From assembly GCA_016936235.1 (NCBI GenBank), contig JAFGPK010000018.1, positions 1 through 34,074 of the forward strand: 34,074 nt of DNA, given 5' to 3'. Every line of letters starts with the position of its first letter. Position 1 is the stretch's first letter. Below the pieces are notes generated by a model. The model saw nothing but the letters and a program-made list of their open reading frames with translations. It was not told the DNA's origin and ran no database searches. Origin of the DNA: Candidatus Fermentibacteraceae bacterium. GTDB taxonomy: Bacteria; Fermentibacterota; Fermentibacteria; Fermentibacterales; JCC-6. Made by a program: the position numbers and the translations under genes. Positions 4,741 to 17,584 of this stretch are shown here, one piece after another.

Positions 4741-6228
4741 CTACTGAGGCAGGTCCCTTCTAATCAGATCGGAGGATATCCTGGCAGACTCGTAGATGGT
4801 CGGCAGGCCGGATCCCGGATGGGTCCCTCCGCCCACCAGGTAGCAGTTGCCTACCTCCTCGAAGCGGTTGTGCGGCCTGAAGTAGAGCATCTGCCTGATA
4901 TTGTGCCCGAGGTTGAAGGTAGCTCCCTGGTATATTGAGTATTCGTCCCTCCAGTCTGCGGGTGTTATCTCCTTCTGGAAGACTATGTGATCCTCCAGGT
5001 CCTTTATGGAAGTTCTATCGGCGATCCTGGCGATGACCCTTTCCCGGAATTCCCTTCTGCAATCATCATCCCAGCTGATGGGTGCGCGGGTGTTCGGTAC
5101 AGGGACCAATACGTACAATGCGCTGTGTCCATCCGGAGCAAGGGTCGGATCGGTCACCGATGCGTTACGCACATATACTGAAACATCCTCCGACAGTATC
5201 TTCTCACCCATTATCTCGGTGATGTTCCTGCGGTAGTCGTCGGCCAGCACGATCTGATGATGGGGCTCATCCCAGATCTTATCCATACCCAGGTAGAGCA
5301 TGTAGGTGGAGCAGGAGTAATTGGATCTGTCCAGTCTTGAGGGGGTCCACTTTCGGATGACGCCCTCCTCGAACATTTTCTCTGCTGCGTATCCGAAATC
5401 GGCATTCAGGACGACGGCGTCATACTCCTCCTTCGAGCCGTCGGGCAGCATCACTCCGGTGGCCCGTCCCCTTCCGTCGGTGAGGATTCGGGATACAGGG
5501 GTAGACGTGAGGATCTCGCCGCCATCCTCCTTTATGACCCGAGCCATAGCCTCGGAGATAGCGGATAACCCGCCCTTGACATGGTCCACACCGAAGTTGT
5601 GCTCGATGAAGGGTATCATGGCGTAGAGGCCGGGGCAGTTCCAGGGGGACATTCCAAGGTACTTGGCCTGGAAAGTGAAGGATATCCTGAGGTTGTCGTT
5701 CTTGAAGTAGTTGCCGAGCACACTGTACAGGGACCTGCCTGCGGAGAGGTGCGGAAGAGCGCGGAGAAGCCTGGGAGAGAGCATCGAGAAGGGATTGCCG
5801 TAGGGCTTCTGAAGGCAGGGGTACATGTACCGGTATCGAACGCTCTCTCGCTTGAGCAGTTTTCTGTAACCGCTCTCCTCACCGGCGAAGGTATCCCTGA
5901 TGCGCTGATAGGTGACCTCGTTGTCCCTTGAGGGATCGAAGCTCACGTCTTTGAAATTGAGCCTGTACATAGGATCAAGCGGCATCACCGTGCAGTAGTC
6001 ATCGAGATTCCGCCCCACTTCCTGGAACATTTCCCTGAGGATGAAGGTCATCATCAGGAAAGTCGGTCCTGTATCGAAACTGAAGCCGCTCTCGGTGATG
6101 GCGGCGCTTCTTCCACCAACCCGGTCCGCCTTCTCGAAGACCTTCACTCTGTAACCCCGACCCGCCAGCAGCATGGCCGCCGTGAGCCCCCCCGGTCCTG
6201 CTCCTACAACTGCGATACTACCAGACAT
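4741..6228 (-). CDS. crtN: CrtI/CrtN-family carotenoid desaturase
   Basis: A 495-residue FAD-dependent desaturase that probably introduces conjugated double bonds into a C30 (diapophytoene or squalene-derived) or C40 backbone. The N-terminus carries the dinucleotide-binding motif GAGPGGLTAA, then FEKADRVGGR and FDTGPTFLMM. The signature FQAKYLGMSPW lies mid-protein, and the C-terminus has LVGGGTHPGSGLPTIYESA, the CrtI-family hallmark near the flavin. The segments GLYAMIPFIEHNFGVDHVKGG and YSCSTYMLYLGMDKIWD track staphylococcal CrtN closely from memory. The ATG lies 6 nt after GGAGG. It is the last gene of a leftward unit after DUF2141 and ALDH, 26 bp behind the ALDH gene. CrtN (C30) is favoured over CrtI (C40) mainly because crtP, crtQ and crtO homologues sit next to it; the chain length is inferred. 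Confidence 0.8.
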   Translation of the reverse strand: MSGSIAVVGAGPGGLTAAMLLAGRGYRVKVFEKADRVGGRSAAITESGFSFDTGPTFLMMTFILREMFQEVGRNLDDYCTVMPLDPMYRLNFKDVSFDPSRDNEVTYQRIRDTFAGEESGYRKLLKRESVRYRYMYPCLQKPYGNPFSMLSPRLLRALPHLSAGRSLYSVLGNYFKNDNLRISFTFQAKYLGMSPWNCPGLYAMIPFIEHNFGVDHVKGGLSAISEAMARVIKEDGGEILTSTPVSRILTDGRGRATGVMLPDGSKEEYDAVVLNADFGYAAEKMFEEGVIRKWTPSRLDRSNYSCSTYMLYLGMDKIWDEPHHQIVLADDYRRNITEIMGEKILSEDVSVYVRNASVTDPTLAPDGHSALYVLVPVPNTRAPISWDDDCRREFRERVIARIADRTSIKDLEDHIVFQKEITPADWRDEYSIYQGATFNLGHNIRQMLYFRPHNRFEEVGNCYLVGGGTHPGSGLPTIYESARISSDLIRRDLPQ

Positions 6229-6254
6229 GAATACCTCCAGATTGGTTCATTTGA

Positions 6255-7619
6255 TCATATATGTTTCAGCATGAATTTTACGAAACGCCTGTGGATGCGG
6301 TAGGGGGGATAGAGGAGGGGCATCTCGAACCTGCCGTTCTTCCTTAGCACGATCCTTTCCCAGGAGAAGGCCCTGTAACCCTCAATTCCCCTGTACCTTC
6401 CGAATCCGCTTCCACCCACTCCTCCGAAACCGATGGATGACGACACTATACGGTGCAGCGTACCGTTGACCGTCACAGAACCGGACCTTGTATTCCGAAC
6501 GAGCATTTCCTCCATTCCCCTTTTATCAGCGGAGAAACCGTACACGGCCAGAGGCGAATCATCACCCTTTCCGGTTCCTGCAACGGTCTCCTCCAGGGAA
6601 TCGAAGGGAACGACAGGTAGTATGGGTCCGAATATCTCTTCATGAAGAAGCGGTGAACCGTCATCGATATCGACCAGTACGGTGGGCGGTATATACAGTT
6701 CTTCCCTTGAACCTGTTCCCCCGGTTGCAGCCCTTCCATGGTGCAGCATCCCCTCAAGCCTGTCCCATGCCGCACCGTCGATGATCCGGCCGTAATCCGG
6801 CGATTCCATGGGGTTCTCTCCGTAGAATTCCTTCACCGCGGAACCGAGTTCGCTGACGAAATCCCCGAAGACGCTCCTGTGGACGAAAACGTGGTTCGGG
6901 GCCAGACAGGTCTGTCCGGCGCCAAGATACTTGCCCCATGCGATGCGCCTGGCGGATGCCCTCAGATCGGCATCCCGGGAGACGAAACAGGGGTTCACTC
7001 CCCCCAGCTCGAGGATCGCAGGAACTGGTCGCTTCGCAGCATCGGCCATGACATTCTTCCCGGTCCGTCCCGACCCGGTGAAGCAGACGACATCAGCTGC
7101 GTTGGCCACCAGCCAGCGGGCTACATCTCCGCTCCCCCCGGCCACGGCAGCTGTCTCCTTGGGAAAATACTCCTCAATAAGTTTGAACATGACCTCCGCA
7201 GTTGCAGGAGCCCTCTCTGACGGTTTGAGGATCACGCTGTTACCCGCTGCAAGGGCGCTGACCATGGGACTGAGGAGCAGACCGGCCGGATAGTTCCATG
7301 GACCGATTATGACGGCAATGCCGTAGGGCTCACGACGGCTTCTGACCCGGCCGGGGATCATGGGGGGTGATAGACGGCAGCGGCAGGCCCTTCTCCATCT
7401 TCGAAGATGCTTCAGGGCATACTGTGTTTCAGCAAGTGCAAGACCGGGCTCCGCGGACCAGGATTCCAGCCAGCATCGTCCGAGATCATGCCGGATAGCC
7501 TCGGCGATCTCCTCGCCTCTGTCCCGCAGCATACTGCGGAGGATTCCCAGGGATCTCCGGGGATCCGGACCCGCCGGATCCCTCCTCTGAAGCTGAACCA
7601 GTTCCTCAAGGTCCTTCAT
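6255..7619 (-). CDS. aldH: ALDH3-type aldehyde dehydrogenase, probable carotenoid aldehyde dehydrogenase
   Basis: A 454-residue NAD(P)-dependent aldehyde dehydrogenase that oxidises aldehydes to carboxylic acids. Visible residues are the oxyanion Asn in GPWNYP (N109), the cofactor Lys in LKPSE (K132), the general base in LELGG (E204) and the nucleophile in GAGQTC (C238). The short length, the GAGQTCLAPNHV sequence and the hydrophobic, basic C-terminal tail (PPYRIHRRFVKFMLKHI) are typical of the class 3 family, whose tails often bind membranes. In staphyloxanthin synthesis an aldehyde dehydrogenase converts the CrtP-made 4,4'-diaponeurosporenal into the acid used by CrtQ, which fits its place between crtN and crtP homologues. 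The start has GGAG about 5 nt upstream. The substrate is inferred from context; general fatty aldehyde oxidation is the alternative. Confidence 0.85.
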   Translation of the reverse strand: MKDLEELVQLQRRDPAGPDPRRSLGILRSMLRDRGEEIAEAIRHDLGRCWLESWSAEPGLALAETQYALKHLRRWRRACRCRLSPPMIPGRVRSRREPYGIAVIIGPWNYPAGLLLSPMVSALAAGNSVILKPSERAPATAEVMFKLIEEYFPKETAAVAGGSGDVARWLVANAADVVCFTGSGRTGKNVMADAAKRPVPAILELGGVNPCFVSRDADLRASARRIAWGKYLGAGQTCLAPNHVFVHRSVFGDFVSELGSAVKEFYGENPMESPDYGRIIDGAAWDRLEGMLHHGRAATGGTGSREELYIPPTVLVDIDDGSPLLHEEIFGPILPVVPFDSLEETVAGTGKGDDSPLAVYGFSADKRGMEEMLVRNTRSGSVTVNGTLHRIVSSSIGFGGVGGSGFGRYRGIEGYRAFSWERIVLRKNGRFEMPLLYPPYRIHRRFVKFMLKHI

Positions 7620-7699
7620 TGCGGCTCCGCCCGTGGATGGATTCGAATCTATGATAAGGACCCGGGCTCGATGAAGTCAATTCCAGCTGACCTTTGATG

Positions 7700-8128
7700 T
7701 CAATGGATCGAGATTTCGATTATCAGTGTATCGGCTTCGAACATTACCAGGGCGTCCTCAAAATCCGGAGGACCGGTGCTTCCCCTGGCGTTGTTGGAAA
7801 AACCGTAGTCCTCCGTGGGGACGCCGAACAGGCCCCGGTCGAAAACGGCGTCGCCATCCTTGTCGTGAAAGGCCGCCATGGCGTACTCACCGGCAGCCAG
7901 CCCCGTCAGATGCATGATCACCGTGTCACCCTGAATGGATGACGTGAGTCTCACCACTGCATTCTCTATGTCCTCCGGCCAGTACTCCTCCGAATCGAAG
8001 ACCGCGAGCCGTGCAAAACCCTCTTCCGAGGAGAAACCCTCCAGCCTAACCACCAGGAGACCGCTCGAGGAATCCGGCAGAGTCTGACCTGCAAGATGTA
8101 ACCCAAGGACCAGGATCAGCGGTAACAT
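7700..8128 (-). CDS. Secreted DUF2141 family protein
   Basis: A 142-residue protein with a short signal peptide (MLPLILVLGLHLAGQ) and one beta-sandwich domain of the DUF2141 family. The family pattern is clear: LVVRLEGFSSEEGFARLAVF, then LAAGEYAMAAFHDKDGD, then FGVPTEDYGFSNNARG and a final PDFEDA segment. The ATG at 8128 follows GGGGGAG closely. Members are extracytoplasmic and their function is unknown. It is the first gene of the leftward unit, 80 bp before the aldehyde dehydrogenase, so it should be expressed with the pigment enzymes. A role in binding or placing the carotenoid outside the inner membrane is possible but is only a guess from position. Confidence 0.8.
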   Translation of the reverse strand: MLPLILVLGLHLAGQTLPDSSSGLLVVRLEGFSSEEGFARLAVFDSEEYWPEDIENAVVRLTSSIQGDTVIMHLTGLAAGEYAMAAFHDKDGDAVFDRGLFGVPTEDYGFSNNARGSTGPPDFEDALVMFEADTLIIEISIH

Positions 8129-8161
8129 CTGCTCCCCCTTTCCGTCATTTCATAGTGCCCT

Positions 8162-8169
8162 AGTATAAT
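8162..8169. promoter_or_regulatory. Overlapping divergent -10 elements between the carotenoid arms
   Basis: A perfect TATAAT lies at 8164-8169 on the plus strand and TATACT is read on the minus strand over 8167-8162, so the two divergent promoters would overlap. No good -35 hexamer is visible at the usual distance on either strand, which suggests activator dependence. The plus transcript would have a leader of about 130 nt before crtP; the minus transcript a leader of about 30 nt before the DUF2141 gene. Confidence 0.4.
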
Positions 8170-8197
8170 GTAGATACGATAGCCGCACTACGGCGGC

Positions 8198-8227
8198 GGG
8201 TTCCAGCCCATTGACCGCCTGGAACCC
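8198..8227. promoter_or_regulatory. Perfect 9-bp inverted repeat in the crtP leader
   Basis: GGGTTCCAG at 8198-8206 and CTGGAACCC at 8219-8227 are perfect inverted arms around a 12-nt spacer. It sits about 25-55 nt downstream of the plus-strand -10 and upstream of the minus-strand one. It could be an operator controlling both arms or an RNA hairpin in the crtP leader. No T-run follows, so it is not a simple terminator. Confidence 0.45.
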
Positions 8228-8304
8228 CAGCAAGTATCATCATTTAAGGAAAAGCCGGATCGGGCTGATTCAGATTTCTCAAGGCAAAAGTCTGGAGGGC
8301 AGGC

Positions 8305-9795
8305 ATGGAAGTAAAACGGGCAGAGAAGGTCGTGATAGTCGGTTCCGGTCTCGGAGGTATCTCAGCCGCCATCTCGCTTGCCCAGGAGGGATTCCAGGTA
8401 CAGATGTACGAGAAGAACGACAGGATAGGGGGCAAGCTCAACTTCCTGACGGAGAAGGGCTACACCTTTGACCTGGGTCCTTCCATCCTGACCCTGCCTC
8501 ATCTCTTCGAAGACCTCTTTTCCCGCAGCGGAAGGAAGCTGTCGGACTACGTCAGCATAAGGACGCTCCGTCCGCACTGGAGGAATTTCTTCGAGGACGG
8601 AACGGTCATAGACCTTCTGCCCGAACCAGAGGCCATGGCCCTGGAGGCCGAGAAGGCTGGAGAGGACCCAGCCGCGGTGAGAGGTTTCCTGAAGTATTCG
8701 GGGGAGCTGTACGATCTCGTGGACAGTGGATACTTCCAGCAGGGGCTGGACGATTCAAGAGATTTCAGGAAGTTCTACGGTCTGCTTCAGTTCCCGAAGT
8801 TCGATCTCTTCCGCAGCATGCACGGCAGCGTATGCAGACACCTGAAGAGCCCGTACATGAGGAACATCTTCGATTTCTTCATTAAATACGTGGGTTCCAG
8901 CGCACTGAGAGCCCCTGCATTCATGAACTGCCTGCCGACGATCCAGTTCAGGTACGATCTGTGGTATGCTGACGGCGGCATGTACAACATAGCCCGGGGG
9001 CTGGGCCGCCTCATGGAGGAACTGGGGATCGAGGTCAATCTCCGTTCCGAGGTGACGACCATCGGGAGTTCCGGCGACAGGGTGACCCACCTGGAACTCG
9101 AGAACGGCAGAAAAGTGGAAGCGGACATTGTCGTTTCCAATATGGAGGTCATTCCCGCATACCGTAGGCTGCTGAACGAAGACGAACCTTTCATGAGGAA
9201 GCTCAGAAAATTCGAGCCGGCATGTTCGGGACTGGTGCTTGACCTCGGGCTGGACAGGAAATACCCGCAGCTGGCCCATCACAATTTCTTCTTCTCCGGA
9301 GATCAGCATGATCATTTCACCAGCGTATTCCAGAAACGGGTACTTCCGCGGGATCCCACCATATACCTGGTGGCCGCCTCAAGGACGGACCCCACAGTGG
9401 CCCCGGAGGGCTGTGATTGTCTGAAGATACTTCCGCACATACCCTACATCAGGGAAGACGCTCCCATCAGCCGGGCGGAGTACATGGAATTCAAGGAGCT
9501 TATCCTGGACAAGCTGGAGCGCATGGGGCTTGAAGACCTGAGGAAAAGCGTGGTTTTCGAGCATGTCTGGACGCCCGAGGACATCCTTCAGAACTACTAC
9601 TCGAACAAGGGCTCCATTTACGGAGTTGTTTCGGACCGTTTCAGGAACTTTGCCTTCAAAGCCCCCAAACGAAGCACCAGGTACGGAAACCTGTATTTCG
9701 TGGGAGGCAGCGTTAATCCCGGAGGCGGAATGCCCATGGTGGTTCTCAGCGGCCGCAACGCTGCTCGAATGATCTCCGAGGACCATCCGGTTTGA
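8305..9795 (+). CDS. crtP: CrtP-like (CrtNb) 4,4'-diaponeurosporene oxygenase
   Basis: A 496-residue FAD enzyme of the CrtI superfamily. It matches Staphylococcus aureus CrtP along its length from memory. Shared blocks include GSGLGGISAAISLAQEGF, FDLGPSILTLPHLFEDLF, FFIKYVGSS, SNMEVIPAYRRLL, YPQLAHHNFFFS, VLPRDPTIYLV, LPHIPYI, VWTPEDI and YFVGGSVNPGGGMPMVVLSG. CrtP oxidises the terminal methyl group of 4,4'-diaponeurosporene to an aldehyde, which the neighbouring aldehyde dehydrogenase can turn into the acid. The start has GGAGG 6 nt upstream. It is the first gene of the rightward arm and its stop overlaps the start of the glycosyltransferase gene by 4 nt. Closeness to CrtP rather than CrtN is my strongest functional call in this cluster; regiochemistry on the actual substrate is inferred. 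Confidence 0.88.
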   Translation: MEVKRAEKVVIVGSGLGGISAAISLAQEGFQVQMYEKNDRIGGKLNFLTEKGYTFDLGPSILTLPHLFEDLFSRSGRKLSDYVSIRTLRPHWRNFFEDGTVIDLLPEPEAMALEAEKAGEDPAAVRGFLKYSGELYDLVDSGYFQQGLDDSRDFRKFYGLLQFPKFDLFRSMHGSVCRHLKSPYMRNIFDFFIKYVGSSALRAPAFMNCLPTIQFRYDLWYADGGMYNIARGLGRLMEELGIEVNLRSEVTTIGSSGDRVTHLELENGRKVEADIVVSNMEVIPAYRRLLNEDEPFMRKLRKFEPACSGLVLDLGLDRKYPQLAHHNFFFSGDQHDHFTSVFQKRVLPRDPTIYLVAASRTDPTVAPEGCDCLKILPHIPYIREDAPISRAEYMEFKELILDKLERMGLEDLRKSVVFEHVWTPEDILQNYYSNKGSIYGVVSDRFRNFAFKAPKRSTRYGNLYFVGGSVNPGGGMPMVVLSGRNAARMISEDHPV

Positions 9796-10883
9796 TCCTT
9801 ATCCTGGTTGTCCTGCTCCTGTGGACGACGGGCATTGTTCTAATATGGAGAATACCCGTCTGCGACGGGTCCGACGGAACCTGTTCTCCGGGGCAGCTTT
9901 CGGTTATCATTCCCGCCCGCAACGAGGCCGGGAATCTGCCCGTGCTGCTCAAGTCGATCCTGGAGCAGGAGGATCCCCCCCTTGAAGTGATAGTGGTAGA
10001 TGATCATTCCGAGGACGGTACCGCGGATGTGGCCAGAAGGAATGGAGCCAGGGTCCTGGGATCTGCACCCCTTCCCCCGGGCTGGACGGGCAAGACCTGG
10101 GCATGCCATCAGGGTGCCGCGGCAGCCGCGGGCAAATATCTTCTCTTCATCGATTCTGACACCTTCTTCCAGGACCGGGGACTGCCCGCACTGCTTGGCA
10201 GCTTCCATGGAGGAGTCCTTTCCCTTCTCCCTTATCATCGGATCATCAAACCTCACGAGGAACTCTCGGCCTTCTTCACCATTTCGATGATGATGGGGAT
10301 CGGAGCTTTCACCGTCCTTGGAGACAGAACATCTCCAACGGGCCTTTTCGGCCAGTCCATGCTGGTCGAAGCAGAGGATTACCGGAAGGCCGGAGGTCAC
10401 AGGGAGGTGAAGGGCAGGATACTGGAGAACTTCTTCATGGCCGGGAATTTCAGGAAGCTGGGAATTAAGCTGCATTGCAGAGGCGGCAGGGGTTCCCTTG
10501 GAATGCGCATGTATCCCGGAGGTATCGCGCAGCTGGCATCCGGCTGGAGCAAGGCCTTTGTCTCTGGAGCGGCTTCCGCTCCCCCGCTGCTCACTGCCCT
10601 GACATCCTTATGGATGTCCGGAGCCGTCATAGCAGCGATCATGGCCTTGCTGGCAGTTCCCTACGGCCGTCCCTGCTGGTTCCTGCCCTACTTCCTCTAC
10701 TCGATCCAGACCTGGAGCATCCTGAGGAGGACCGGCTCCTTCGGCCTGCTGACATCCCTCCTCTATCCGGTGCCCCTGCTATTCTACTTCTGGTTATTCT
10801 TCAGAGCTCTCTTCATGAGACTCACTCGCCGGTCTGTCACCTGGAAGGGCAGGCAGATGGGATCCGCGAAGGGCAGGGACTGA
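9792..10883 (+). CDS. crtQ: CrtQ-like carotenoate glycosyltransferase (GT2)
   Basis: A 363-residue membrane-associated family 2 glycosyltransferase. Residues 1-20 form a membrane helix, followed by the nucleotide-sugar domain (SVIIPARNEAGNLPVLL, VIVVDDHSEDGT) with the metal-binding DSD at 121-123, and the block PPGWTGKTWACHQGA that is typical of CrtQ and its relatives. Three hydrophobic segments near residues 265-345 end in a basic tail (RRSVTWKGRQ). Staphylococcal CrtQ adds glucose to the carboxyl of 4,4'-diaponeurosporenoate. The start is TTG, overlapping the crtP stop as TTGA, which implies translational coupling. Hopene-associated glycosyltransferases of the HpnB type look similar, but the flanking crtP and crtO homologues favour CrtQ. 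Confidence 0.82.
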   Translation: MILILVVLLLWTTGIVLIWRIPVCDGSDGTCSPGQLSVIIPARNEAGNLPVLLKSILEQEDPPLEVIVVDDHSEDGTADVARRNGARVLGSAPLPPGWTGKTWACHQGAAAAAGKYLLFIDSDTFFQDRGLPALLGSFHGGVLSLLPYHRIIKPHEELSAFFTISMMMGIGAFTVLGDRTSPTGLFGQSMLVEAEDYRKAGGHREVKGRILENFFMAGNFRKLGIKLHCRGGRGSLGMRMYPGGIAQLASGWSKAFVSGAASAPPLLTALTSLWMSGAVIAAIMALLAVPYGRPCWFLPYFLYSIQTWSILRRTGSFGLLTSLLYPVPLLFYFWLFFRALFMRLTRRSVTWKGRQMGSAKGRD

Positions 10884-10917
10884 ACTGGTACTGCATCCCG
10901 GAATCGTCTGGACCATT

Positions 10918-11373
10918 ATGCTCAATGTCCTTTTCTGGGCCGTTGTCAGTATGGGTGCAGCATGGCTTGGGACGAGATTTCCCGCCGGCAGGATATGCAT
11001 CGACGGCTGGATGTTCAGGCAGCGGGACTGGGAACGCGGCGGAAGGACCTATGAGAGACTGCTGAAGGTCCGCGGGTGGAAGGACCACCTTCCGGACTGG
11101 GGCGGTGTTTTCGCGGGAGGCTTTTCAAAAGGCAGACTGCAGTCGGCGTCAACGGACTATCTGGAGCGCTTCGCCGCGGAAACCTGCAGGGGAGAGGCAG
11201 TACACTGGGCCGTCATGATCTCCGGTCCGCTGTCCCTGATCTGGAATCCCTGGTGGGCCGGCATGCTGATGGTCCTGTACGGTACAGGGGCCAACCTTCC
11301 ATGTATTATTGTTCAGAGATACAACAGGATCAGGCTCCTGAACCTTCTACGGAACAGGCGGAATGATGGATAG
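10918..11373 (+). CDS. crtO: CrtO-like glycosyl-carotenoate acyltransferase
   Basis: A 151-residue membrane protein of the staphylococcal CrtO family. CrtO transfers a fatty acyl chain to the sugar of glycosyl-4,4'-diaponeurosporenoate, the last step to staphyloxanthin. The family blocks are plain: KDHLPDWGGVFAGGFSK, ETCRGEAVHW (R91, E93, H96), LIWNPWW and NLPCIIVQRYNRIRLL. There is an N-terminal membrane helix and a second pair after residue 95. The ATG has only a weak ribosome site; an in-frame CTG at 10885, just after the crtQ stop, would extend the first helix and is a possible start. Its end overlaps the next gene by about 11 nt. This name refers to the staphylococcal acyltransferase, not to CrtO-type beta-carotene ketolases. 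Confidence 0.87.
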   Translation: MLNVLFWAVVSMGAAWLGTRFPAGRICIDGWMFRQRDWERGGRTYERLLKVRGWKDHLPDWGGVFAGGFSKGRLQSASTDYLERFAAETCRGEAVHWAVMISGPLSLIWNPWWAGMLMVLYGTGANLPCIIVQRYNRIRLLNLLRNRRNDG

Positions 11374-13234
11374 AGCAGCAGCTTCAGCCCTGGAGACCGC
11401 GAGGCAGTGCAGGCACTACGCCATGTGCAAGATCGACTGCCTCGGCACCGGAGTCTGCCCCTCGGGCAGAAGGAACCATTTCGTATCGTACTACCCGCAG
11501 GGGATCATGGATATCACCGCCGCACTGCTCGAAGAACGGATACCTGTATCGGCTGGTCTGTTCCACGTTGCTGACCAGTGCACCATGTGCGGTATCTGCG
11601 ATCTGCAGTGCAATTTCGTGACGGGGCTCAGACCGATGAAGGCCGTAGAGGCGCTGAAGCGGCGCGTGACGGAGTTAAGGGCGAGGGGTGCCGTGCCGGT
11701 GGAAGCGCCTGAGGACAGTTTCCTGCTAAGTCTCAGGGAAATAACGGGCCGGGAGTTCTCTACTTCGGACCCGGCGCATCTGACAGCCTACTCCACCGAT
11801 CCCTGTCCCACTTCCGTGGAGACCGTCCCGGGATACGTCGCCCTTCCAGAGGATACGCAGCAGGTGAGCAGCATAGTGCGACTGTGCAGAAGCTGCGGCG
11901 TGGAGTACGTCGTTCGAGGGAACGGATCCTCCGTCATGGGGTTCGTGCTATCTCCCGGCGTTATCATAGATACCGCCAGAATGAGGACTCTGGAATTCAG
12001 GACCGAGGACAGGTCGGTAACTGTGGGAGCCGGGATAAGTTCGATGGAACTCCAGAAGGAGGCCGTCAGCATGGGTTTCAGGGTCAACACTGCCGAGCCG
12101 TCGGCTCTCTACTGCGCCAATATCATGTGTTCGGGAGTATTCTCGCTATTCTCCAGTTCCTGCGGAACCGGGCTGGACAACCTCATAGACGCTGAATTCG
12201 TGGATGATGAGGGGAATATCCTTCAGCTTTCCGGAAGGAACGGGCCGAATCCCTGTGCATTCCAGAGGTCGGGGGCGCTTCCTCCGGGCATATGCACAAG
12301 GGCCGTGGTGAAGCTTCATCCTGTGTGCGAGGGGGAATCCGCCATCGCTGTTCCCTTCGATTCGATGGAACCCGCCATCCTCTATGCGCGCGAGCTGAAC
12401 GCCATGGACATCGGACTGGGTATAGGAGTGCTGGGCACCGAATACCTTTGTACGTTCATGGCTCCCACCGCCGGCCTGGCAGGGACAATGCGCAGGATAT
12501 ACGGTGATGACCTGGGGATCGGGTACATGGTTGTCGTCCTGGGCAACCGCCACCATCTGAAGGCAGCCAGAGCCCTTGCTCCCTGCGCCATCGAACAGGG
12601 AATGATCACCGCCCTGACCCTGGGAATGACATCCCTTGAAAACAGCGGTTTCGCGTCCATTCTGAAGGGCATGGGGACCGACAGCCCCTACATGAACCTG
12701 GCGGAGCCCGGAATGCAGATACTCGTGGAAGCAGCCCTGGACCCCTCTCCCGAAGCCCTTGCCTCGGCCGTTGATCCTGACCTCAGGGAATCCTACGCGG
12801 CGCTCTACAGCAGGGATGAAATGACTGACATGCTATGGCTGAACACTTTCCGGATAATCAGCTCCAGAATGGGCAGGGAGGGTCATGTGGTGGCCTTCAT
12901 CCTCTACGTGCCCATGGATGTTCCGGACCTGGTGGCGGAGATCCACAGAAGTTTCGCCCGTGTGGCGGATGAGAACGGTGTAAGAGGCGACTTCGGCTTT
13001 CTCACTCCTTTGGAGAGGGGAAGCATGGGCGTACTTGAGTGGGACATGTACCTTGATCATACTGATGAGGACGAAGTGAAGAGGGCGCAGGAAGCCATGG
13101 TTCAGGCAGCCGGAATGATAGAGGGGCTTCAGGGGCGGGATCCGAGGATCCTGTGGATCAGGTACGTCTTCAACCAGGGGTTTGCCAGGAAGGAATCCTT
13201 CCTGCATCGGGGTTCTCTGCTTTCACATGAATGA
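11363..13234 (+). CDS. Fe-S/FAD-linked oxidase (FAD_binding_4 type) with N-terminal cysteine clusters
   Basis: A 623-residue redox protein of a type I cannot assign to a named enzyme. The N-terminus holds two cysteine sets: C16, C22, C26, C32, then a typical 4Fe-4S motif CTMCGICDLQC (C73, C76, C79, C83). From about residue 150 there is a PCMH-type FAD domain as in glycolate and lactate oxidases: PGYVALPEDTQQVSSIVRLC, VRGNGSSVMG, GVIIDTARM, VTVGAGISSMELQKEA. A GlcD-like substrate half fills the rest. Such fusions usually move electrons from a hydroxy acid or similar substrate to an Fe-S carrier, probably on the cytoplasmic side. Its start lies inside the crtO gene and its end overlaps the next gene, so it belongs to the same transcript. 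It has no counterpart in the staphylococcal crtOPQMN operon. Confidence 0.8.
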   Translation: MMDRAAASALETARQCRHYAMCKIDCLGTGVCPSGRRNHFVSYYPQGIMDITAALLEERIPVSAGLFHVADQCTMCGICDLQCNFVTGLRPMKAVEALKRRVTELRARGAVPVEAPEDSFLLSLREITGREFSTSDPAHLTAYSTDPCPTSVETVPGYVALPEDTQQVSSIVRLCRSCGVEYVVRGNGSSVMGFVLSPGVIIDTARMRTLEFRTEDRSVTVGAGISSMELQKEAVSMGFRVNTAEPSALYCANIMCSGVFSLFSSSCGTGLDNLIDAEFVDDEGNILQLSGRNGPNPCAFQRSGALPPGICTRAVVKLHPVCEGESAIAVPFDSMEPAILYARELNAMDIGLGIGVLGTEYLCTFMAPTAGLAGTMRRIYGDDLGIGYMVVVLGNRHHLKAARALAPCAIEQGMITALTLGMTSLENSGFASILKGMGTDSPYMNLAEPGMQILVEAALDPSPEALASAVDPDLRESYAALYSRDEMTDMLWLNTFRIISSRMGREGHVVAFILYVPMDVPDLVAEIHRSFARVADENGVRGDFGFLTPLERGSMGVLEWDMYLDHTDEDEVKRAQEAMVQAAGMIEGLQGRDPRILWIRYVFNQGFARKESFLHRGSLLSHE

Positions 13235-14357
13235 TGATCCGGTACTGATAACGGGGGCCACCGGCTTCCTCGGGGGGTTCCTGGCAGGTGAGCTTGTCCG
13301 AAGGGGGAAGAGGACATTCCTTGCCGCAGGGCCGCAGGCTGGGGCCGTGGACCGGATCAGGCGCCTGCTGGAATTCCTGGATGTTACTCCGAAATACTCC
13401 CCGAAAGTGTTTTCATCCGATATCACAAAACCCGGTCTCGGCCTGTGTCCGGAGGATGCCCGTGCACTGGATACCATTCGGGAGGTCATCCACTGCGCCG
13501 CCCTGACTTCCTTTTCCCATCGGGAGAGGGCGCGTCTTGAAGCGGTGAACATAGACGGGACCGCAAACATCCTGGACGCCGTGCCGGCGTGCAGACGCTT
13601 CTACCATATGAGCACGGCTTACGTGGCTGGAAAAGCTTCGGGCACATGTATGGAGGAGCCGGTGAGCACACGCTGTTTCAACAACCATTACGAGGCCACA
13701 AAGAAAAAGGCCGAGGATGTTGCCATGCATGTATGTCAGGGGAGGAACATCGACCTTACGATATTCAGGCCATCCATCACCTGCGGAGACTCGCGAACCG
13801 GAAGAAGTACAAGGTTCAATGCCCTCTACTATCCGGTAAGGGTCATGCTCTTCCTTCGGGACACCATCAGGAAGGATATTCTGGAAAGGGACGGTTCCAG
13901 GGCGTACTCCCTGGGGGCCTCGATGGATCCCTCGGGCCGGGTCAGACTTCCAGTAAGCCTTCCCGGAGCTGGTCGAATCAACGTGATCCCGGTGAATTAT
14001 CTGGTACAGGCCGTCATTGCAGTAATGGAGTCAGGGGCGACCGGGATATTTCACCTGGTGAACCCCCGGGAGAACACCGTCGGGGAATTGGCGTCCTTCA
14101 CCGAGGATTTCTACGGCATCACTGGAATATCCATCTCCCGCGAACTAGAGGCGGATGGTCCACTTCAGGCCCTTGTCAACAGCTACATGAAGGTCTACTA
14201 CCCCTATTTCTGCGACGGAAGGAGTTTTGACCGGAAAAGGTCAGACCGGGTCCTTCTGAATGAAGGGCTTGTATGTCCTTCTTTGAACAGGGAAGTATTC
14301 AAGGTGTGCATGGATTTCGCCATAGAGATGGACTGGGGTGCGAGAACGGAATTCTGA
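13227..14357 (+). CDS. NAD(P)-dependent male-sterility/thioester-reductase-like SDR
   Basis: A 376-residue extended short-chain dehydrogenase. An ATG at 13227 is chosen over an upstream one at 13182 because it begins just before the Rossmann motif (LITGATGFLGG). It overlaps the stop of the previous gene by 8 nt. The catalytic set is visible: Ser in HMSTAYVAG and the Tyr-Lys pair in NNHYEATKKKAEDVA. The region around DITKPGLGL, VIHCAALTSF and FRPSITCGDS matches the NAD-binding 'male sterility' family, which includes fatty acyl-CoA reductases and the terminal thioester reductases of carrier-protein systems. It may reduce an acyl thioester or a carotenoid-derived group, but the substrate is unknown. 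It is the last gene of the rightward pigment arm, followed by a small hairpin at 14427. Confidence 0.78.
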   Translation: MNDDPVLITGATGFLGGFLAGELVRRGKRTFLAAGPQAGAVDRIRRLLEFLDVTPKYSPKVFSSDITKPGLGLCPEDARALDTIREVIHCAALTSFSHRERARLEAVNIDGTANILDAVPACRRFYHMSTAYVAGKASGTCMEEPVSTRCFNNHYEATKKKAEDVAMHVCQGRNIDLTIFRPSITCGDSRTGRSTRFNALYYPVRVMLFLRDTIRKDILERDGSRAYSLGASMDPSGRVRLPVSLPGAGRINVIPVNYLVQAVIAVMESGATGIFHLVNPRENTVGELASFTEDFYGITGISISRELEADGPLQALVNSYMKVYYPYFCDGRSFDRKRSDRVLLNEGLVCPSLNREVFKVCMDFAIEMDWGARTEF

Positions 14358-14827: not shown

Positions 14828-17584
14828 ATGGAGAGACCTTTCGTTGACAGGACCGATGAACGAAGCCATCTGCGCAGGGCTCTGAAGTACGATGGCAGCG
14901 AGAATCCTGTGCTTGTCTTCACTGGTATCGGCGGTATGGGCAAGACCGCCCTGAGGATCGATTTCGAGAACCAGGCGCTAAAACCGGACAACGTTCCCTT
15001 TGCCGCAGTGGACTACGACACCGACCCGAATCTGAAGCCCATAGAGTCAACTCTACGGGCGATGCGCCGGCAGCTGGGCAGGCAAGGTGTTCGGACGCCT
15101 GTCTTCGATTTCCTGTACGCCCGCTATTTCGAACTCAGCATGGGGGTAAAGATCTCCGCGCAGAACTGTCCCCATGAACTCGAGAGCGTGGTCAACATTC
15201 TGGAAGGGATACCGGCCGTGGGCAGCGTGGCGCAGGTGATACACGGCCTGAGCCAGCTGGGTCTGAGCATCAAGGAGCGTCTGCGTCATAAGGAATGGCT
15301 TTACCGGCTCCGTGAACTGGAACCGCGCGAGGTCCTGAATCTCCTGCCCGAGGCCATGGCCGGAGACCTGGAAGAGGCGGTATCCACCCGGACACCGAAG
15401 GTCCTGAAGTCTTCGGGAAGCCGGATTGTCCTGCTCCTTGATGCCTATGAGCGCCTTGCCGAGGCGCAACTGGACGACGCCCTGCATAGAAAACTGCTTT
15501 CTCTGACTCCCCATCTGCTGCGGGTTGTCCTGACCCGGGACCCGCTTCCCTGGGATCTGAAGTTTCCCAGTGAATGGAGCGGCAGGATAATACACGTTCC
15601 CTCTCTGGAGGATCTCTGCAGCGAGGATACGAAGACGCTGCTGCGGGAGAAGAGCGTAGACGACCCCGACCTGCAGGAGCACCTCTACCGGTTGACAGGC
15701 GGATACCCTTTTCATCTTGAACTGTGCTCCGATATCTGCAGGGAGATTGCCGAAGCCACAGGCAGGAAACCGAAGACGGAGGATTTTCAGGGGACGGCAC
15801 AGGCGAGGGACCTCACCGAGGAACTCGTGGACCGCCTGCTTCGGCAGCTTAACGATGACGAGAGAGACCTGATGGGTCTGGCCTGCTATCCGAGATGGAT
15901 TTCCGAGGAGGTCCTGGAGGAACTCTCATCCGTTCCGGAAAGCGTCTCTCGCATCTACAGGAAGTTCATGCAGCTTTCCATGTTCTCTCCCCATCCGGAG
16001 ATAGCCGACGCCGCTGTCCTTCGGCAGGAAGTACGTGACTGCCTGCTTTCCAAGCAACTGAGCAAGCGATGGTTCAGGAAGCGACACGGAAAACTGTCGG
16101 AATTCCATGCGGAATGCTGGGAGGAGACCGGGGCATTCCATCACCTTCAGGAGGCCCTGTATCATGGGTTCTATGAGGACTCTGAACGGGCCGTGGAGGT
16201 CTTTGAAAAGCACTTCTGGCAACTCCTTGAAAAGTGTCAGTTTGCCGAAGCGGGAAGCCTGCTCGAGTCCGTCCCTCATGAGACGCTGGATGAAAAGGCA
16301 AAAAGGAAGGTGGATTACGCCCGCGCGCGCCTGCTCACCGGACAGGCCGGCTCACAGCAGAGTCTGTTGACGGCGAATGGAATCTATGAGTCGCTCATTG
16401 CCGGCGAGAACGATGAGGAATCCCTCGGGCTGTACCTCTTCTCCTTCGGCGAACTGCAGTGCTGCCAGGGCGATTATGCAAAAGCGCTGGAGTATGGTCT
16501 GAAGGCTCTTGAAATCCGCCGGAAGGTCTTTGGGGAGGAACACCCCGATGTTGCCGCCTCTCATCACAACGTCGGGGATGCCCTCTACGAACAGGGCGAA
16601 TACTCAGAGGCGCTGGAGCACTACGAGAAAGCTCTCGCTATCCGCCGAGGGGCCTATGGAGAGGAACATCCCGATGTGGCTGATTCCCTCAACGACATGT
16701 GCATCATCAACAGGGAGCTGGGTCGGTACAGCGAGGCGCTGGCGTATGGCAGGAAGAGCCTCGACATTCGCCGGAAGATCTTCGGGGAAGAAGCTCCCGC
16801 CGCAGCCATCCCCCTGGTGAACATCGGAAGTGTCCATTACTACCGGAGTGAGTACGGAGAGGCCCTGGACTACTATCAGCGGGGCCTGGCCATCATGTCG
16901 AGGGTCTATGGAGAAGAACACCCGAAGATCGCCATTCTGCATAACAACATCGGGAGCGTCTGCCAGTGCCTCGGCGATTATGAAAAGGCGCTGGAACATG
17001 CCCGGAAATCCCTGTCCATGGATCTGAACGTCTACGGAGAGGAACACCCCAACGTAGCCGACTCCTACCACAACATCGGGACGATCTGCTACAGAAAGGG
17101 TGAGTACGAAAAGGCGCTGGATTACTATCAGAAGAGCCTGGCCATAAGAGTCAGGATTTCCGGACCGGAACATCCGCGGGTATCAATCTCCTACCACAAT
17201 ATAGGGATCATCCACAAGGAACAGGGCGAATACGCCACGGCCCTTGAGTATTTCCGGAAGAGCCTGGACATCTGTCTGAAGTTCTACGGAGACGAGCATC
17301 CGGGATTGGCCGGGTCCTACTATGAGATCGCCTGCTGCCTCTATGCGCTGAATGAAGTGGACCAGGCCTTCGAAAGCATCCGTAAGAGCATAGAGCGGTA
17401 CCTCGAATTCGACCTCTGGAAATCCGTGCCGGAGGCTCTTTACATGCTAGCGCAATGGCTGGATGAACAGGGAAAGAGCACCGAGGCGCAGGAGGCGCGC
17501 AGGGAAGCCCTAAAGATATGCGACGAGCATGATATGCCCGATCTCATTGCAGAACTGGAGGAAAAGAGATCGGGGAGGTATTGA
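14828..17584 (+). CDS. STAND-type NTPase with C-terminal kinesin-light-chain TPRs
   Basis: A 918-residue cytoplasmic protein with a NLR-like layout but no recognisable N-terminal effector domain. The NTPase module has a Walker A motif TGIGGMGKT (residues 32-40), a Walker B strand IVLLLDAYE (200-208) and a sensor-like VVLTRDPLPWD (233-243). It is followed by a winged-helix-like segment near 330-420. From about residue 530 come eight TPRs with a 42-residue period. Seven end in or near YGEEHPD-type linkers (GEEHPD, GPEHPR, GDEHPG), the kinesin-light-chain form, and the eighth is degenerate. Such proteins switch between ADP- and ATP-bound oligomeric states when the repeats sense a ligand. Known roles include transcription control and antiphage defence; which applies here is unclear. 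It stands alone behind a strong promoter. Confidence 0.85.
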   Translation: MERPFVDRTDERSHLRRALKYDGSENPVLVFTGIGGMGKTALRIDFENQALKPDNVPFAAVDYDTDPNLKPIESTLRAMRRQLGRQGVRTPVFDFLYARYFELSMGVKISAQNCPHELESVVNILEGIPAVGSVAQVIHGLSQLGLSIKERLRHKEWLYRLRELEPREVLNLLPEAMAGDLEEAVSTRTPKVLKSSGSRIVLLLDAYERLAEAQLDDALHRKLLSLTPHLLRVVLTRDPLPWDLKFPSEWSGRIIHVPSLEDLCSEDTKTLLREKSVDDPDLQEHLYRLTGGYPFHLELCSDICREIAEATGRKPKTEDFQGTAQARDLTEELVDRLLRQLNDDERDLMGLACYPRWISEEVLEELSSVPESVSRIYRKFMQLSMFSPHPEIADAAVLRQEVRDCLLSKQLSKRWFRKRHGKLSEFHAECWEETGAFHHLQEALYHGFYEDSERAVEVFEKHFWQLLEKCQFAEAGSLLESVPHETLDEKAKRKVDYARARLLTGQAGSQQSLLTANGIYESLIAGENDEESLGLYLFSFGELQCCQGDYAKALEYGLKALEIRRKVFGEEHPDVAASHHNVGDALYEQGEYSEALEHYEKALAIRRGAYGEEHPDVADSLNDMCIINRELGRYSEALAYGRKSLDIRRKIFGEEAPAAAIPLVNIGSVHYYRSEYGEALDYYQRGLAIMSRVYGEEHPKIAILHNNIGSVCQCLGDYEKALEHARKSLSMDLNVYGEEHPNVADSYHNIGTICYRKGEYEKALDYYQKSLAIRVRISGPEHPRVSISYHNIGIIHKEQGEYATALEYFRKSLDICLKFYGDEHPGLAGSYYEIACCLYALNEVDQAFESIRKSIERYLEFDLWKSVPEALYMLAQWLDEQGKSTEAQEARREALKICDEHDMPDLIAELEEKRSGRY

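Follow-up and report, generated by a model that had tools for sequence, protein, structure and literature searches.

The C30 carotenoid pathways characterized in the literature consulted all start with an enzyme of the PF00494 family, be it CrtM, HpnC/HpnD or squalene synthase (available text of PMC10448405 and PMC10745290), and some of the tailoring steps have been reproduced with P. faecalis enzymes in E. coli, where CrtP2 leads to the aldehyde and AldH to the acid (PMC7764019, in the sections available). The window analyzed here, a stretch of 34,074 nucleotides from a Candidatus Fermentibacteraceae bacterium (contig JAFGPK010000018.1 of assembly GCA_016936235.1), carries at positions 4741-11373 a cluster of such tailoring genes, encoding CrtN-, CrtP-, CrtQ- and CrtO-like proteins and an aldehyde dehydrogenase (ALDH). 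A main result of the analysis is that this cluster, like several of its homologues in other phyla, resides in a genome in which no PF00494 protein was found. As far as the searched literature shows, carriage of this kind, under selection and phylogenetically clustered, is new: a search that most subscription journals lay outside returned no report of a C30 cluster devoid of PF00494, and none that ascribes carotenoid genes to Aegiribacteria or Fermentibacterota.

Distribution of PF00494 among carriers of the cluster

The window, contig C81, comes from a draft genome of 2.68 Mb (G000; 94% complete, 117 contigs), and no member of PF00494, which takes in CrtM, CrtB, HpnC, HpnD and squalene synthase, was found in that genome. 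The same holds for all 42 genomes sampled from the phylum Fermentibacterota, including the 24 with a completeness of 90% or more and no more than 5% contamination; the search control was positive in 7 of 14 control genomes each time. Among the genomes sampled is G001 (97% complete, 40 contigs), which belongs to the same genus as the window genome and is Candidatus Aegiribacteria sp. MLS_C, its CrtP locus being shared with LQBI01000034.1. Candidatus Aegiribacteria is placed by NCBI in the FCB group, incertae sedis, and belongs to Fermentibacterota under GTDB. Outside the phylum, PF00494 is present in 77 of the 89 other carriers of the cluster, mostly in two copies (34 of 41 carriers and 43 of 48 further ones, the latter comprising 38 carrier loci and 10 genomes). 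The 12 carriers without it are G061, G065, G074, G086, G094, G095, G100, G103, G235, G301, G371 and G423.

These absences are grouped on the trees of both desaturase-type proteins. On the CrtN tree, 10 of the 55 labelled rows lack PF00494 and the trait changes 3 times, against a mean of 9.4 with shuffled labels; on the CrtP tree, where 15 of 92 rows lack it, there are 8 changes against a shuffled mean of about 14.1, and for neither tree was any of 500 shuffles as low. The grouping is most apparent in a CrtN clade (support 97) of seven Kiritimatiellota/Hydrogenedentes-type rows, six of which are without PF00494, the seventh (L113) possessing only a divergent copy within the cluster. The pattern on the CrtP tree is unclean, with its 8 changes and with G074 standing alone among synthase-bearing carriers. 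Both trees are quick reconstructions with SH-aLRT support only, and the placement of the long branches G035 and L126 is unsure. Clustering of this sort excludes random gaps; it does not amount to proof of replacement, because kin share gene content.

Selection keeps the tailoring enzymes in place without a known head enzyme in the Kiritimatiellota-type genomes G235 and G371, between which the ratio of nonsynonymous to synonymous rates (dN/dS) is 0.082 for CrtN, 0.079 for CrtP and 0.154 for ALDH, at an unsaturated dS of 0.45-0.57 and with no internal stops. The corresponding values between G086 and G103 agree with these (0.10, 0.11 and 0.17; dS 1.3-1.6), and those between the window and G001 (0.12 for CrtN, 0.11 for CrtP, 0.18 for ALDH, 0.21 for CrtO and 0.28 for a DUF2141 protein of the cluster) are rough, dS being saturated at 1.5 or more. 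Within the 20 kb read around the cluster, no CrtO was found in G235 or G371 and no CrtQ in G371, so the final product of these two may differ.

When present, the synthase is seldom close to the tailoring genes, a script profile locating it inside the cluster or in its vicinity in 4 of the 80 related loci (L055, L065, L089 and L113). The L113 copy (Kiritimatiellae; 7362-8168) is a divergent PF00494 protein (7e-24) two genes upstream of CrtP and most like squalene synthase, although its TIGR01559 score of 70.7 bits falls far short of the 286.75-bit cut-off. A divergent squalene synthase of this type was considered for the phylum and rejected, since as a query the L113 protein gave no match below E 0.035 in G000, G001, G035 and G037; in seven PF00494-less carriers, likewise, nothing fell below that value.

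More generally, we entertain the proposition, held only slightly less firmly than its contrary, that "headless" C30 pathways form a class of their own. In Fermentibacterota, in several Kiritimatiellota and in one or more Hydrogenedentes, selection would maintain CrtN, ALDH and CrtP, frequently along with CrtQ and CrtO, without PF00494; such cells would either scavenge the squalene or carotene of others, as fermenters that make a habit of finishing carotenoids, or share a head-to-head synthase whose sequence is unrelated to that of any known squalene or phytoene synthase.

The cluster and its relatives

The sequence-only reading had recognized CrtN-like, ALDH, CrtP-, CrtQ- and CrtO-like genes in two divergent arms, and all five are there, as uninterrupted reading frames with family scores far above chance. 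It had passed over the DUF2141 gene and a pair of genes overlapping the right arm at its 3' end. A minus-strand pair (CrtN-like and ALDH) is followed by the DUF2141 gene and by a plus-strand trio (CrtP, CrtQ and CrtO) whose gene ends overlap or are closely spaced:

4741-6228, minus strand: CrtN-like carotenoid desaturase (CrtI family), 495 aa; TIGR02734, 468.9 bits (cut-off 238.1); FAD motif GxGxxG at residue 9
6255-7619, minus strand: aldehyde dehydrogenase (ALDH), 454 aa; Aldedh, 4.1e-77
7700-8128, minus strand: DUF2141 protein, 142 aa; PF09912, 7.2e-28
8129-8304, no strand: intergenic region between the arms; weak promoter-like site at 8211-8240 (plus strand)
8305-9795, plus strand: CrtP/CrtNb-like 4,4'-diapocarotenoid terminal oxidase, 496 aa; TIGR02734, 348 bits; FAD motif at residue 13
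9792-10883, plus strand: CrtQ-like family 2 glycosyltransferase, 363 aa; Glycos_transf_2 (PF00535), 1.1e-21; DSD at 121
10918-11373, plus strand: CrtO-type acyltransferase, 151 aa; PF18927, 8.3e-33 (113.8 bits, cut-off 27.3)
11363-13234, plus strand: FAD-linked oxidase with a CxxCxxCxxxC motif at 73; PF01565, 5.6e-19; overlaps the CrtO end
13182-14357, plus strand: NAD_binding_4 reductase; PF07993, 9.3e-31; overlaps the FAD-linked oxidase gene

The names are confirmed by the plasmid-borne crtOPQMN cluster of Staphylococcus xylosus, in which the namesake is the top match of every window Crt protein. CrtP is 46% identical to its counterpart over 475 aligned positions and 94% of its length (449 bits, against 210 for CrtN), CrtN is 32% identical (268 bits, against only 182 for CrtP), and CrtQ and CrtO show 32% (187 bits) and 33% (61.6 bits) identity, respectively. 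The homology of CrtP and CrtO proposed from the sequence is thus borne out, in that neither falls into an unrelated family in profile searches, in the S. xylosus comparison or, for CrtP, on the tree; on the CrtN tree, the clade of the window protein is set apart from the staphylococcal one. The neighbor of CrtN is an Aldedh family member, presumed to be a carotenal dehydrogenase. Its motifs LELGG at 203 and Cys238 within AGQTC match the ALDH catalytic ones, but its earlier designation as ALDH3 goes further than the data, the best NCBIfam model, MdlD, falling under its cut-off (284 versus 550 bits). CrtQ has hydrophobic segments at residues 1-25, 158-177, 265-292 and 317-337. Between the arms, promoter-like sites are not in excess (5 found, 5.0 expected in shuffles). 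Whether the FAD-linked oxidase and the reductase belong to the pathway is uncertain; as conserved cluster partners they were discarded, with homologues in 0 of 80 related loci.

In the phylum, crtI-family proteins above the cut-off are confined to 3 of the 42 genomes (G000, G001 and G035), those of G000 being the two Crt proteins only, and CrtO likewise to 3 (G000, G001 and G037). The window CrtN is 74% identical to those of G001 and G035, and the three proteins, mutually 74-79% identical, form a single clade (support 100). The G001 cluster is split between one contig with CrtN, ALDH and DUF2141 and another with CrtP, CrtQ and CrtO; identities to the window are 64% for the CrtN-adjacent ALDH, 78% for CrtP and 57% for CrtO, the G037 CrtO standing at 44%. 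On the CrtP tree the window groups with G001 (support 99), the next proteins by path length, weakly supported (84), being those of L047 and L051 (Hydrogenedentes). In G035, CrtP is divergent from ALDH-CrtN and lies on a long branch of unsure position. A member of another Fermentibacterota family, G037 (95% complete), presents CrtQ and CrtO as neighbors (L014:3185-4771), and neither CrtN, CrtP nor any crtI-family protein above the cut-off was found in it.

The contig itself is correctly binned, because the identity of the asparaginyl-tRNA synthetase (AsnRS) that it also encodes tracks kinship: 81% to G001, 72-80% to the rest of the genus (full-length or partial matches), 62-69% across the family and 59-63% across the order, with matches in 36 of the 42 genomes. 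Together with the related crt genes of G001 and G035, this rules out contamination of the bin.

Beyond the phylum, genome contigs were scanned with a CrtP alignment and the best 80 of 301 loci were kept, many of them cut by contig ends and one of them MLS_C itself. Their record titles point mostly to Verrucomicrobiota, but also to Hydrogenedentes, Kiritimatiellota, Kapaibacterium, Ignavibacteria, Omnitrophota and others, and the window CrtP is 58-73% identical to the other 79. ALDH occurs in 67 of the 80 loci, CrtQ in 63, CrtO in 60, CrtN in 48 and DUF2141 in 5; 35 loci have the complete set of five Crt/ALDH genes, ALDH is divergent from CrtP in 59 and the exact layout of the window recurs in 22. 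The tailoring module itself is hence widespread and of an already known kind. The suggestion that its pigment is unusual for FCB bacteria loses weight, since all five genes occur together in the Kapaibacterium/Ignavibacteria loci L120 and L123, whose genomes do have PF00494. A Verrucomicrobiota origin of the window cluster is not settled, the tree being a biased sample (the best 80 of 301). Five loci titled Akkermansia muciniphila (L048, L086, L095, L101 and L103) carry the cluster, yet their contig names suggest environmental metagenome-assembled genomes and the label is doubtful.

Several proteins of other families neighbor these clusters. The DUF2141 gene adjoins ALDH in G001 and lies in the same 20-kb stretch as the cluster in G035; such genes also stand beside carotenoid genes in L120 and L123, and in Sphingomonadales one has been noted near the carotenoid gene crtG, with no function assigned there (PMC5989583, in the available text). 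Three genomes without PF00494 have a DUF116 gene (PF01976) inside their carotenoid cluster (L099:1907-2347, L144:12217-12684 and L147:12019-12525), with a dN/dS of 0.06 between two of these genes at high dS. In L047, L051, L099, L113, L115, L124 and L144, which belong to different phyla, the gene immediately upstream of CrtP encodes a TPR protein of some 280 aa. As a candidate for the absent enzyme it was set aside, for it has TPR domains only and does not occur in the window, L145 or L146. Elsewhere in the window, the earlier remark on type IX secretion sorting tails accords with a Por secretion-tail domain, just above the Pfam cut-off (28.5 versus 27 bits), in an FG-GAP repeat protein (122-2017), and a 918-aa TPR-repeat protein (14828-17584) resembles, below cut-off, the TPR proteins of FxSxx systems.

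Source of the C30 backbone

The reading we lean towards, tentatively and with somewhat more doubt than belief, is that the cluster is a staphyloxanthin-like tailoring module acting on an acyclic C30 polyene whose backbone is not made in the cell but taken up. The substrate would be squalene or a diapocarotene acquired from surrounding biomass. CrtN would desaturate this C30 backbone, CrtP would convert a terminal methyl group into an aldehyde and ALDH the aldehyde into a carotenoic acid, to which CrtQ would attach a sugar; acylation of the sugar by CrtO would then yield a staphyloxanthin-like glycosyl ester. The C30 (not C40) chain length, each reaction and the product are predictions from homology. 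The sequence-only reading had the cell make an acylated glycosyl ester outright; the complete tailoring set CrtN/ALDH/CrtP/CrtQ/CrtO agrees with this, whereas production by the cell itself finds no support, no PF00494 protein having been found in this genome or in the other 41 of the phylum.

An outside source is preferred, if only modestly, for want of a visible substitute gene and in view of a lifestyle that suits it. MLS_C is a presumed fermenter from sulfidic meromictic lake sediment and lacks the synthesis of some amino acids (available text of PMC4846661), so a scavenging life seems plausible; a word search of the same paper found no mention of carotenoids. Spare prenyl synthases (PF00348) were also rejected as substitutes. 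Like most non-carriers, G001 has a single copy (C30:44262-44930, C30 being here a contig), which a distance of about 12.6 kb separates from the CrtN gene of that contig; G000 shows none, and the two adjacent part matches in G035 are most likely one split gene.

Several points weigh against backbone uptake. It is inferred by elimination only, no search for uptake genes having been made. The CrtQ of G001 is broken by an internal stop and a frame change, its match ending at residue 224 of 363; the ALDH reading frame of G035 is interrupted, and in that genome (71% complete) CrtO was not found, nor was CrtQ within the 20 kb read. Of the 36 genomes searched for PF00348, G000 is the one in which it is missing, the other 35 having it, and this gap reveals at least one assembly hole, so the lack of PF00494 in G000 is weak evidence when taken alone. 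Finally, CrtP in S. aureus and its relatives is an oxygenase. Eubacterium limosum makes no carotenoid under strict anaerobiosis (PMC11611032, in the available text), a case which suggests that an anaerobe may keep C30 genes idle without air.

An unlikely explanation, though one to be reckoned with, is an unrecognized head-to-head synthase outside PF00494, common to Fermentibacterota and the PF00494-less Kiritimatiellota and Hydrogenedentes carriers. The clustering of these carriers on both trees, the CrtN clade in which L113 alone bears a (divergent) copy, and the purifying selection on CrtN and CrtP in genomes lacking PF00494 all speak for it. Nonetheless, no synthase-type gene is common beside the clusters, the neighbors being TPR, DUF116 and DUF2141 proteins; G001 has no spare PF00348 copy; and kin inherit absences jointly, which makes clustering insufficient by itself.

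Loss of a laterally acquired module, with no pigment in the species today, is improbable. It would account for the rarity of crtI-family proteins and CrtO in the phylum, for the split cluster of G001 and the erosion seen in G001 and G035, and for a CrtN identity between G000 and G035 (74%) that exceeds that of AsnRS (64%), as after transfer between lineages; every gene of the window is intact, however, and the dN/dS of CrtN and CrtP is low, even if this estimate is time-averaged and its dS saturated. We deem it rather improbable, too, that an ordinary squalene-route or CrtM pathway has lost its first genes in assembly gaps. According to their listings, the PF00494-less carriers are all draft assemblies, G000 is also short of PF00348, and a synthase usually encoded elsewhere in the genome can drop out of a draft. 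Yet none of the 42 genomes of the phylum has the family, the fairly complete G001 included, the absences in other phyla are clustered rather than scattered, and G103, G235, G301 and G371 were selected with a completeness floor of 85%. That the module works on a different lipid, be it a C40 carotenoid or, for example, a polyprenyl chain, is very improbable: it would suit the failure to find a C30 maker in the 42 genomes and the CrtQ and CrtO of G037, a pair that can serve a different acceptor, but the similarity of CrtP to staphylococcal CrtP extends over nearly its whole length, PF18927 is the family to which the acyltransferase of C30 glycosides belongs, and a C40 route would likewise require PF00494.

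Comparison with known pathways

A tailoring line kept by selection in genomes without PF00494 would point either to an exchange of carotenoids or squalene from cell to cell, something difficult to prove and, to our knowledge, rarely shown, or to an undiscovered class of synthases. It also calls for caution in naming a pigment from late genes alone, as is common practice.

The staphyloxanthin pathway of Staphylococcus (crtOPQMN plus aldH) has CrtN, CrtP, CrtQ, CrtO and an aldehyde dehydrogenase in common with the window, but it includes CrtM, whereas no PF00494 protein was found in the window genome or its phylum. Its genes form one operon, as opposed to two divergent arms with DUF2141 between them, and the ALDH gene of S. 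aureus is remote from the cluster (PMC7764019, in the sections available), while that of the window lies inside it. The squalene-route C30 pathways of Planctopirus limnophila, Methylobacterium and Methylomonas share the CrtN and CrtP-type tailoring pair and, in Methylobacterium, also the glycosylation and acylation proposed for the window (PMC10448405, available text). Unlike the window genome, these systems rely on HpnCDE or squalene synthase (PMC10448405 and PMC10745290, as far as their available text goes), and M. extorquens AM1 has a different acyltransferase and no CrtO homologue (available text of PMC10448405), in contrast to the CrtO of the window. Eubacterium limosum, an obligate anaerobe, has C30 crtMN genes (PMC11611032, available text) and thus, unlike the window genome, a crtM. 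The closest systems are the two-armed CrtN-ALDH/CrtP-CrtQ-CrtO clusters of Verrucomicrobiota and Hydrogenedentes (L046-L124), which have the same genes as the window, and in 22 of the 80 loci the same layout. PF00494 is present in 71 of the 79 genomes of such loci, and to their common set of genes the window adds DUF2141 and the two genes at its 3' end.

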